Origin: Undibacterium umbellatum
Lineage (GTDB): Bacteria > Pseudomonadota > Gammaproteobacteria > Burkholderiales > Burkholderiaceae_D
Reading direction: 5' to 3'
Length of the DNA: 64,000 bases
NCBI RefSeq assembly: GCF_014284125.1
Contig: NZ_JACOFX010000009.1
Span: 124,001-188,000, forward strand
Of this stretch, positions 3,766 to 18,460 are shown one piece after another. Both the position numbers and the translations under genes were made by a program. Under the pieces are notes generated by a model. The model searched no databases. It worked only from the letters and a program-made list of their open reading frames with translations, and had not been told where the DNA came from. How positions within the stretch are numbered: the stretch's first letter is position 1; every line of letters starts with the position of its first letter.

Positions 3766-4853
3766 GTTTCAGATTCCCGCTTCAGTAAGGCTTTCTTGCG
3801 TTCCATCCCCCAGCGATAGCCAGTTACATCACCATCAGAACGTATGACTCTGTGACAGGGTATCGCCACAGCAAACTGGTTGGATGCACAGGCATTGGCC
3901 ACCGCCCTTACAGAACTGGGCGAGCCTATACGCTTGGCAATTTCTGCATAACTGGCGGTCTGCCCCGGAGGGATATCCTGCAAGGCTTTCCATACTCTTT
4001 GCTGGAAAGCCGTACCCTGCACATCCAGCGGCAAATCCAGTAATCCTCGTGGTTGCTGTATATATGCCAGGATGCTGGTGACCCATTCTTTGAAATGCGT
4101 TTCTGCCGCTCGGATGCTGGCTTTGGGGAAACGCTGCTGCAATACCTGCTCCAGCACACTGGCTGAATCACCAAATTCTATTGTGCAAATGCCCTTTTCT
4201 GTCGAGGCTATCAACAACAAACCCAATGCGCTTTCACAAACCATATACTGCATCTGCAAATCCTCAGCACCCGCCCGGTAAGCCTTGGGCGACATACCCA
4301 GCATTGCCCCGGCCATTTCATAAAAGCGACTGGCAGAATTGTAGCCTGCATCATAAATTGCCCCGGAGATTGAAGCGGACTGATTCAGCAAAGACCTGAC
4401 TTTTTCTTTTTGCAGGGCAGACTGATATTGTTTGGGAGTGACTCCAGTAAGCTCTTTGAAAATGCGGTGAAAATGATGAGGACTCATTGCCATCTTGCTT
4501 GCAAGGGTTTCAAGCTTCAGAGGTGCTTCGCTGTTTTTGATCAACTGACAGGCAGTTTCTATCATGCTGTTTCTGCTGTGCTCCTGGCTCACGCCATCCG
4601 GGTGACAACGCTTGCATGCGCGATAGCCCGCTTGCTGAGCCAGCACTGTTGTTTCATAAAATTCCACATTCTGCCGCTTGGCCGTTTTGGCGGGACAAGA
4701 AGGCCGGCAATATATGCCCGTAGTTTTTACTGCAAAAACAAACTCGCCATCCAGGTCGCGGTTCTTTATACAAACTGCGTCCCAACGCACATCATCAAGA
4801 TCAACTGGCATGGCTGGTCCCTTTTTTTCCCTGACATTTGCATATGTAAGCAT
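3762..4853 (-). CDS. ada: Ada: bifunctional methylphosphotriester/O6-methylguanine-DNA methyltransferase and transcriptional activator
   Basis: A 363-residue protein with all three Ada parts. The N-terminal zinc domain has Cys49, Cys53, Cys80 and Cys83 (TGIYCRPSC ... CKRC), matching the methyl-accepting centre of E. coli Ada. An AraC-type helix-turn-helix region covers about 95-190. The C-terminal O6-alkylguanine transferase has the acceptor Cys333 in AIPCHRV. Methylation of the N-terminal Cys by phosphotriesters turns Ada into an activator of its own promoter. The start is supported by GGAG seven bases upstream. An Ada box lies about 65 bp upstream, which supports autoregulation. The gene is first in an operon with the 2OG oxygenase. 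Confidence 0.95.
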   Translation of the reverse strand: MLTYANVREKKGPAMPVDLDDVRWDAVCIKNRDLDGEFVFAVKTTGIYCRPSCPAKTAKRQNVEFYETTVLAQQAGYRACKRCHPDGVSQEHSRNSMIETACQLIKNSEAPLKLETLASKMAMSPHHFHRIFKELTGVTPKQYQSALQKEKVRSLLNQSASISGAIYDAGYNSASRFYEMAGAMLGMSPKAYRAGAEDLQMQYMVCESALGLLLIASTEKGICTIEFGDSASVLEQVLQQRFPKASIRAAETHFKEWVTSILAYIQQPRGLLDLPLDVQGTAFQQRVWKALQDIPPGQTASYAEIAKRIGSPSSVRAVANACASNQFAVAIPCHRVIRSDGDVTGYRWGMERKKALLKRESET

Positions 4854-16238: not shown

Positions 16239-16482
16239 CAGGGCTCCAGAGGAAGATTGCAAAGTGTGCGAGGACATGGGGAGTAAATTTTCCATATTGT
16301 GCAGCATCATATCTGTGATTCTGGCAAAGTCCAAGCATACAAAAGCATGTGGACACCCTATGCATTTACGGAAATAAAATAGTCATTTCTCTTCAAAAAT
16401 AATTTGCAAATGATTAATCTTTGCACTATGCTCATTTCTACAACCTGCACAAGTGGTTGAGCACAATGGCGCAAGCCAGGTG

Positions 16483-16685
16483 ATATCGGGAGAGACTGTC
16501 CATTAAAGCAAGGGCAGCGCCGAAGGAGCAACCACCCCGGAAACTCTCAGGCAAACGGACCGTTATTACTTTCAAACTCTGAAGAGCTGCCGGACTACGT
16601 CGCCCGGCACACCGAAGGAGCAAGCATTGCACCGCTACCCGTGGTTGCAGGCGAAATCTCTCAGGTCCAGGACAGAGGGGGTATC
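16483..16685 (+). ncRNA. Tandem glycine riboswitch (two aptamers)
   Basis: Two aptamer copies are visible in series. The first has GGGAGAGAC, then GCCGAAGGAGCAA (near 16530) and GGAAACTCTCAGGCAAA. The second has CACCGAAGGAGCAA (near 16611) and GCGAAATCTCTCAGGTCCAGGACAGAGG. These are the conserved core sequences of the gcvT-type glycine riboswitch, which normally turns on glycine-cleavage genes in betaproteobacteria. Here no gcv gene follows: the next frames are a 53-codon ORF with a good ribosome binding site and then an exported protein/protease pair. Confidence 0.93.
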
Positions 16686-16737
16686 CGTTGCGTATTTTGC
16701 GCGCAGATATCCCTTTGACGTCTGGAGTCCATATACC

Positions 16738-16899
16738 ATGAAATCCAAGATAGTTAACGGTGACATTGCCACCGCGACGGCTGACGCATGCGCGCGGCAA
16801 AAATCTGCAACCCTTGGCGACAAAAACAACTGCGCAATTCATCCCCATCATTTGAAAGATGAAGGCGTACGACAGCCACGCCTACACTTCCTTCATTGA
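16738..16899 (+). CDS. Short ORF directly behind the glycine riboswitch
   Basis: A 53-residue frame starts at ATG 16738 with TGGAG about nine bases upstream, exactly where the riboswitch-controlled gene should begin. The product (MKSKIVNGDIATATADAC at the N-terminus, His/Arg-rich at the C-terminus) has no signal peptide and resembles no glycine-cleavage subunit or glycine transporter I know. It could be the stub of a lost gene, a leader peptide, or a real small protein. Confidence 0.4.
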   Translation: MKSKIVNGDIATATADACARQKSATLGDKNNCAIHPHHLKDEGVRQPRLHFLH

Positions 16900-17078
16900 C
16901 GCTATTGCGTCATACAGCCCAGCGCCTATAGCTCATTTGTACAGCGCTTCAAGCTGATTCCTTATTCCCGCGTGTGCGGGTAATGATGTCCGGCATGTGA
17001 ACCATGCCATGTTTCAAGCCGCCCAGCCCGCTTGGACAGGTGGGCTATTGTCTCAATCCAAACCAGGAGCAAACCATC

Positions 17079-17828
17079 ATGCATTTGCACTCTGTTTCCA
17101 GATTCAAAAAATCCACTCTGGCCGCTTTGATATTCAGCATCAGTTGCGCATTGGCCAGCCCGGCACTAATGGCACAAAACCAGGCCACCGACATGGCAGG
17201 CACGACCGATCAGGCACGCCTGGTCAACGCCGCTGCGCAACGCGATTTTGCTGAGTTTGTACAATTCAATATACAGCGACGGGGCGGTACTTTGCCCTCA
17301 GAATTCCCGCTGGATGTGAATGATGTGCATGACCTCAAGGATGCCAGGATAGACTATGGCTTTCAGGTCTATAGCGTGCCGCCGCAAGATGTCATGAATG
17401 GTCGCGGTGATTTACGCAGCATCGCCAGGGCCACTGGCGAATGGCGCTTTGTTATCAGCTTGAACAATAACCCGATAGGCCTGGCAACACTGAGGCAAAA
17501 CAATGGCCGCTGGGGCATCACTTCTTATGGCGGTGCCGTGCTGGCGAAGGATGTGGATGCAGCGATCGCCATGCATGGCAATAGCACCCGTTCCAATCTG
17601 CGCTTCATTCGCGTCTATCAGGCCATGTCGGATTTTCTGGAGGTAGTTTCGCCCATCGACGCCCGCGCCCGCTTTGCCCCCTTGCATGCAGCACGTCAAA
17701 GCCTGCTGTTGCAACAGCGTAGCGAAAAAACCGGGACATCGTCTACCAACACTGGTTTACTGGAGCAAAGCGACATCCTTGACCCATTGCGCGTCAGTGT
17801 CAAACGCAATATCGAGAACTTCCGCTGA
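17079..17828 (+). CDS. Exported hypothetical protein paired with a cysteine protease
   Basis: The start is chosen at the ATG with CCAGGAG ten bases upstream. The 249-residue product then begins with a signal peptide (MHLHSVSRFKKSTLAALIFSI..., ending near ALMAQ). The mature protein has no recognised domain. The stretch FVISLNNNPIGLATLRQNNGRWGI appears (split in the fold) and could be an NTF2- or inhibitor-like beta region. It lies 44 bp upstream of the C70-type protease gene and is probably co-transcribed with it. A chaperone, propeptide-like or inhibitor role for the protease is an inference from this pairing only. Confidence 0.72.
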   Translation: MHLHSVSRFKKSTLAALIFSISCALASPALMAQNQATDMAGTTDQARLVNAAAQRDFAEFVQFNIQRRGGTLPSEFPLDVNDVHDLKDARIDYGFQVYSVPPQDVMNGRGDLRSIARATGEWRFVISLNNNPIGLATLRQNNGRWGITSYGGAVLAKDVDAAIAMHGNSTRSNLRFIRVYQAMSDFLEVVSPIDARARFAPLHAARQSLLLQQRSEKTGTSSTNTGLLEQSDILDPLRVSVKRNIENFR

Positions 17829-17872: not shown

Positions 17873-18460
17873 ATGCAAAAAAATCTGTTAAAACTGATCC
17901 TTGCTCTAGGCATCATGCTGAGCTTCCCAAGTGCCTTTGCCCAATGGCGCGCTTTGAATGTGCCGCTGGTAACGCAAGAACACAGCCAGTGGTGCTGGGC
18001 CGGCAGCGCGAAGGCCGTGCTGAATTTTTATAACAAGACACCCAGCCAGTGCCAGATCGTGAATTGGGCGTACGGCCTGAACTACGCTTGCGGCAATACC
18101 AACTTTAACTGGAACAGCAATGCCAACCAGCCCAATGCCATGTATGGCAGCAACGGCAGTGTACAAAAAATCCTGGCAAATTGGGGCGTGCCAAACACGG
18201 CCTATAGTTATGCTTCTTCATGGAACACCGTGGTCAGCGACATCAATGCCAACCGCCCATTTGTGATTCGCTATGGCTGGAGCAATGGCGGCGGGCATAT
18301 CATGGTAGGCACTGGTTATGAAGTGTATAACGGCACCAACTACGTCTACATCATGAACCCATGGCCAGGCGAAGGAAAAACCTACAGGACCTACGGCTCT
18401 GCCGTGTCTGACTATGATCATCAGTGGACACATACGCAGCGTATGAATGTCAGTGGCTGA
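17873..18460 (+). CDS. Secreted papain-like cysteine protease (C70/AvrRpt2-like)
   Basis: A 195-residue protein with a signal peptide (cleavage near residue 23, AFA) and ACGGAG before the ATG. Catalytic motifs are visible: Cys41 in HSQWCWAGSA, His142 in GGGHIMVGTGYE and Asn162 in MNPWPGEG. This Cys-His-Asn order and spacing fit papain-like cysteine peptidases of the AvrRpt2/C70 or related C39-like families. There is no long propeptide, so activity may be controlled by the companion encoded just upstream. A role outside the cytoplasm is expected, for example in predation, nutrient release or interbacterial competition. Confidence 0.85.
   Translation: MQKNLLKLILALGIMLSFPSAFAQWRALNVPLVTQEHSQWCWAGSAKAVLNFYNKTPSQCQIVNWAYGLNYACGNTNFNWNSNANQPNAMYGSNGSVQKILANWGVPNTAYSYASSWNTVVSDINANRPFVIRYGWSNGGGHIMVGTGYEVYNGTNYVYIMNPWPGEGKTYRTYGSAVSDYDHQWTHTQRMNVSG

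Follow-up and report, generated by a model that had tools for sequence, protein, structure and literature searches.

A tandem glycine riboswitch with an apparent former target, dadA, upstream of a secreted cysteine protease locus in Undibacterium umbellatum

We analyzed a 64,000-nucleotide (nt) stretch of Undibacterium umbellatum DNA (contig NZ_JACOFX010000009.1, positions 124,001 to 188,000; here called the window), in which a tandem glycine riboswitch stands upstream of two genes for secreted-looking proteins, the second of which encodes a cysteine protease. Our analysis moderately favors a history in which this switch once controlled dadA and, after that gene had been lost, came to head the transcript of the protease locus, with glycine raising its expression. 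This would be a case in which an established class of riboswitch gained an apparently new target through the loss of an older one.

The riboswitch and its apparent former target

The tandem glycine riboswitch named in a preliminary description of this DNA is real, as both aptamers exceed the 32-bit gathering cutoff of RF00504: aptamer 1 lies at 16477-16572 (65.2 bits) and aptamer 2 at 16569-16685 (47.5 bits), both on the forward strand. As that description had stated, the expected gcvT or transporter gene was not found behind the switch among the proteins scanned. The search that it proposed for another switch at the true gcv operon located a second tandem glycine switch above the cutoff on another contig of the same genome (C15:961382-961603, minus strand), behind which stand gcvT, gcvH, and gcvP (recognized from their translations, not by profile search). 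Because gcvTHP has its own switch, the one in the window is additional to it, and this genome never lacked its gcv genes.

Comparison of the locus with that of relatives, likewise proposed, points to the former target. The switch and the two secreted-protein genes recur, and in four Massilia-type genomes (G224, G189, G254, and G214) an open gene of 410 amino acids (aa) lies between the switch and the pair. Its product in G224 is a D-amino acid dehydrogenase by NF009074 (723.9 bits; cutoff, 494), with PF01266 at 230.1 bits. This gene, dadA, is internally deleted in G264 and G234; in G173 it is left as scattered matching DNA pieces, and the switch before the pair has decayed below the cutoff. 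The switch precedes dadA in G244, where the protease pair sits elsewhere, and also in G168, where no pair follows and where the leader (CCCTTTGACGGTCTGGAGTCC..ATGAAAAC) is almost the same as that of the window. As a separate observation, G184 (L223, reverse strand) shows the reverse of the window's fate, with dadA open and the glycine switch decayed, as judged by eye.

The 53-codon open reading frame (ORF) previously described downstream of the switch is present at 16738-16899 on the forward strand, with the string CTGGAG, resembling a ribosome binding site (RBS), at 16722-16727 on the same strand, 10 nt ahead of the ATG; in G168 this string also stands before dadA. The ORF seems to be what remains of the dadA start, with a decayed N terminus, and not a conserved new gene. 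Its N terminus aligns to dadA without gaps, and the start codons of the two line up after an alignable leader. Residues 2 to 20 were scored ungapped against five dadA proteins, and of 20000 shuffles, 195 were as good as the window sequence, compared with 165 for the related locus L071, 12 for L067, and 2 each for L068 and L070; the window, L067, L068, and L070 jointly were equaled in 1 of 20000 permutations. Among the 1640 ATG-started 20-mers of the window, six reach the score of the window relic, which is itself one of the six. An earlier gapped version of the test was weaker (window, 0.046; L067 to L069, 0.003 to 0.007; L070, 0.10; L071, 0.50), and tblastn gave nothing significant.

It is very improbable that the product of the ORF is a genuine small protein under glycine control and that the protease pair is incidental. 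An ATGAAAT start with a CTGGAG-type RBS does occur in all six Undibacterium loci, and the first 63 nt are conserved above the remainder (68 to 71% against 48 to 54% identity, the latter with insertions, between the window and L067 to L070). However, the conserved part is the dadA start, and the ORFs of 53 aa in the window and 72, 83, 83, 68, and 90 aa at the same place in five relatives, each beginning with ATGAAAT after CTGGAG, share no body common to all. The window ORF has no Pfam or NCBIfam match and no protein-level match at an E value of 1e-3 in the five other Undibacterium loci. It more likely survives as a translated leader.

The right edge of the dadA slot is also retained, as a block that precedes the gene at 17079, contains GTCCGGCATG and a GGACAGG hairpin, and is common to Massilia. 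Two small hairpins (GGCATG..CATGCC and GCCCGCTTGGACAGGTGGGC) at 16988-17045 on the forward strand, shared with the gap between dadA and the pair in Massilia, could be an attenuator. Of 38 loci checked, 10 have the right-edge block or tandem hairpins, and each of these is switch-linked and of the Massilia or Undibacterium type; the block is missing from seven other switch-linked loci of the 38, from L174, and from switchless loci. A further repeat-like hairpin, ATTCCCGCGTGTGCGGGTAATGA, lies at 16964-16986, and close forms of it stand between the relic and 17079 in L067 to L070. On these sequence comparisons, we favor dadA as the former target of the window switch, since lost. Where the preliminary description had offered target loss and control of new genes as alternatives, both in succession now seem the better account, dadA having been lost and the switch having stayed before the protease locus in several genera.

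Distribution and conservation of the switch

Within Undibacterium, 41 of 43 genomes have a glycine aptamer match, and six have four (G000, which is the present genome, and G015, G021, G022, G026, and G029). In the other five, both genes of the pair also come after the second switch, with 84 to 88% identity to the first gene of the window in four genomes, 52% in G029, and 72 to 96% for the protease. Within 10 kb of the G029 locus, none of the five other window neighbor genes asked for was matched.

In a family sample of 195 genomes, the protein encoded at 17079 was found in 18 and the protease (E value up to 1e-10) in 19. Glycine aptamer matches occur in 83 of these genomes and number more than two in 13 (four in 12 genomes and three in G173). 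Eleven of these 13 carry the extra copy 5' of the pair (G000, G147, G189, G214, G224, G230, G234, G250, G254, G264, and, below the cutoff, G173), and G244 and G168 carry it before dadA alone; the context was read for multi-switch genomes only, and the other switch was confirmed as gcv in G000 only. Eleven of the 18 pair-bearing genomes are thus switch-linked, the remainder being G001, G003, G006, G195, G207, G259, and G244.

A wider census of 84,980 species genomes, made with a protease profile reached via two peptide patterns, yielded 58 loci, some of which belong to the same genomes as the genus and family samples. Rfam models were run on 55 of them (all except L217 to L219), and a glycine aptamer above the cutoff was found upstream of the pair in 22 and in none of the other 33. 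Six of the 22 gave a tblastn match to dadA, which is whole in L184, L189, and L190, split over two frames in L164, and deleted in L187 and L191. The 16 without a match comprise Undibacterium L162, L179, and L200, 11 others, and L193 (Mitsuaria) and L194 (Pelomonas), in which a single gcv-like aptamer, possibly a separate capture, stands 545 to 576 nt before the pair. A tree built from the two proteins spreads the switch-linked loci over several groups and sets the deleted dadA copies of M. frigida and M. aquatica between intact ones; dadA was therefore probably lost more than once. The recurring linkage, as read from these genomes, is consistent with a switch kept at the locus after such losses.

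Two features of the surroundings of the pair were observed in the census. Riboswitch motifs of the nhaA-I class lie downstream of the pair in L193 (4979-5029) and L194 (6051-6101), and in eight loci (L164, L165, L170, L171, L175, L188, L205, and L124) the pair is near the end of an rRNA operon (5S or 23S, opposite strand).

The census also bears on a rival reading, which we consider unlikely but which has several points on its side: the switch may be a leftover from the dadA operon that is slowly fading, with the pair served by its own promoter and showing no response to glycine. The 33 of 55 protease loci with no switch above the cutoff agree with it, as do the decayed switch before the pair in G173 and the 394 nt with two hairpins between the window switch and the pair. 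Nine "no switch" loci gave no RF00504 match at E values up to 1, and hence no relic switch was found in them.

Conservation of the aptamers argues against a fading leftover. Aligned aptamer letters are 85 to 91% identical between the window and L067 to L070, above the third codon positions of the 17079 gene (64 to 68% against L067, L068, and L070). The corresponding identities with L067 to L070 are 77 to 87% for the upstream DNA, 80 to 82% for the expression platform, and 71 to 82% for the spacer at 16900-17078; with L071, aptamers are 74% and the platform 42% identical. The aptamers are thus kept, by a modest margin. Two points weigh on the other side, namely, that the flanking DNA, both upstream and in the spacer, is itself fairly conserved and that counting gaps as differences narrows the margin (means over pairs: platform, 0.70; relic start, 0.66; aptamers, 0.61; upstream, 0.55; spacer, 0.53; rest of the relic, 0.31), the value for the aptamers including insertions of 39 nt in L067 and 206 nt in L070. 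The former, in U. pigrum (also L200), lengthens the P2 loop of aptamer 1 by about 36 to 39 nt. The latter, in an Undibacterium metagenome-assembled genome (about 4078-4283; the locus is the same as L162), places about 206 nt with the matching inverted ends GGAACTCATTTCAT / ATGAAATGAGTTCC between the aptamers and resembles a small mobile element.

The stems point in the same direction. For 18 switch loci without a working dadA, picked because both aptamers were recognizable (L069, near-identical to L068, was left out, as were L164, L174, L193, and L194), 380 of 396 cells of aptamer 1 are paired in the Rfam structure, a count reached by none of 500 shuffles (mean, 349; maximum, 359), and slid structures pair 114 to 174 of the 396. 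Two-sided changes occur at 7 of 22 pairs (shuffle mean, 4.6; reached by 10 of 500). These figures suggest that the stems were conserved after dadA was lost, with the reservations that kinship alone may beat shuffles without structure and that some changes may predate the losses. RNAalifold structures, counted without shuffle controls, gave 421 of 432 cells paired and, for aptamer 2, 398 of 414. The RNAalifold structure departs from that of Rfam, and because the extraction required core strings, the "unchanged core" in this count is partly so by choice.

An altered ligand was also considered. Aptamer 2 carries GAAGAG in the listed switches of the pair and of dadA (not in L193 and L194), in contrast to GGAGAG in the eight gcv aptamers 2 of the genus that were checked. 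The idea was dropped because the gcv switch of G076 also has GAAGAG.

Possible action of the switch

A promoter-like sequence, TTGCAA-17-TATGCT, can be read 5' of the switch at 16404-16432 on the forward strand. In the alignment it is the same in L068 to L070, differs by one base in L067, and is missing from L071; a consensus promoter scan did not pick it up. No sigma-70-like site was called on the forward strand between 16200 and 19100, which, as a weak test, argues against a separate promoter for the pair and thus against the fading leftover.

Folding places a leader hairpin 3' of the P1 stem of aptamer 2 (16675-16716, forward strand). The 69-nt window leader folds at -23.0 kcal/mol, and a comparable hairpin is present in 15 of 15 leaders folded. 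As the hairpins lie after aptamer 2 and before 17079, the switch transcript might end in them and serve not as an mRNA leader but as a small RNA or decoy that responds to glycine. We regard this as improbable, given that no intrinsic terminator was called on the forward strand between 16572 and 17079 and that the switch abuts the gene start in seven other loci.

These seven loci (L168, L171, L178, L181, L182, L183, and L186) also suggest how the switch may act. Their start codon lies 51 to 55 nt past aptamer 2, and the 5' strand of P1 pairs with the RBS at -11.9 to -13.1 kcal/mol, with 0 to 0.7% of 300 shuffles as good. If glycine forms P1, the RBS would be freed, and the switch would be an ON switch in these loci. 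Such a fit between switch and RBS is a further point against the fading leftover. One study describes expression platforms in this phylum as mostly favoring translational control (PMC12452182). The same pairing is not significant in the window (0.447 of shuffles), and among dadA-type leaders the shuffle fraction is 0.013 to 0.033 in G254, G214, and G234 and 0.147 to 0.750 in G224, G189, G244, and G264. A single mechanism for all loci was rejected, the P1-RBS pairing being clear only in the seven direct loci.

Under the favored reading, high glycine in the cell would fold the aptamers and expression of the protease locus would rise. In the window, where the leader hairpin is followed by the relic start, translation of the relic ORF or read-through might link the switch to the pair, which is a guess. 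The first gene would then supply a separately secreted pro-domain-like partner and the second a staphopain-like protease without a pro-domain, the outcome being glycine-responsive proteolysis outside the cytoplasm. We infer glycine control of the pair, and with it glycine binding, the ON direction of the response, and a transcript that reaches both genes in the window. A broader scenario is put forward more tentatively: dadA was deleted in several lineages, and the switch was repeatedly kept for a secreted cysteine protease with a separate pro-domain gene. Glycine, perhaps from glycine-rich proteins, would signal more secretion of a protease that yields glycine-rich peptides.

The protease pair and comparison with known systems

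Of the "protease pair" reported earlier, one member holds. The gene at 17873-18460 (forward strand) encodes a secreted-looking staphopain/C39-like cysteine protease of 195 aa that matches PF13529 (Peptidase_C39_2) with 60.6 bits (cutoff, 24) and, more weakly, PF12385 with 32.1 bits. C41 and H142 are invariant among 40 protease sequences and, by analogy with papain-like enzymes, are probably the catalytic residues. The catalytic fold starts at about residue 21, and the chain contains no pro-domain. The gene at 17079-17828 (forward strand) encodes a secreted-looking protein of 249 aa that is not a protease by profile and may be a pro-domain-like partner. Signal peptides of both proteins were judged by eye.

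The partner has no Pfam or NCBIfam family at E values up to 0.1, and a Pfam scan of 44 partner proteins found no family in more than 3 (best E value, 0.0048). Its predicted fold best matches the prostaphopain pro-domain, with a modest score, and the modeled products of the two genes correspond to different halves of a single chain, that of prostaphopain 1x9y. The partner is likely a pro-domain, inhibitor, or foldase of the protease. Neither a staphostatin nor a streptopain zymogen is among the structure matches listed for it, which excludes nothing, and sequence searches of the Protein Data Bank gave best E values of 0.62 for the partner profile and 0.091 for the protease profile. The partner gene lies directly upstream of the protease in 57 of 58 loci (in L164 it was matched in its second half only). 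No fused partner-protease genes were seen, and the partner profile was found in 2 of 369 class genomes.

Glycine switches have been classed as gcv, transport, glycine metabolism, and other, and the words "protease" and "peptidase" are absent from the main text of that study (PMC6944388). In a search of mainly the open literature, supplements aside, no report was found that links a glycine riboswitch with dadA/glycine oxidase or with a secreted or cysteine protease. As the known roles of glycine riboswitches lie in glycine breakdown and transport, a protease target would extend their reach to proteolysis outside the cell. With dadA intact, freshly deleted, or decayed in living relatives, the passing of a riboswitch between targets can be watched. 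Likewise, in the protease locus, where a pro-domain-like protein is separately encoded, the idea of a zymogen divided between two genes can be put to the test.

Among the closest parallels are the staphopains (family C47; prostaphopain B), which are accompanied by staphostatin. In the window the pro-domain-like and catalytic halves are separate genes; identity to the staphopains is 16 to 18% over the catalytic half, and the best Pfam match of the window protease is C39_2. SpeB, by comparison, retains its own propeptide. In the SpeB-Spi system, this C10 protease has a gene for a propeptide-analogue inhibitor, and the likeness is a propeptide-like partner gene beside a secreted cysteine protease (PMC2873492). 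The systems differ in that the window protease is without a propeptide and its partner gene stands first. With the tandem switches of gcvTHP, including the copy on C15, the window switch shares two RF00504 aptamers above the cutoff, whereas it precedes an apparent dadA relic and a protease locus instead of gcv or transporter genes.
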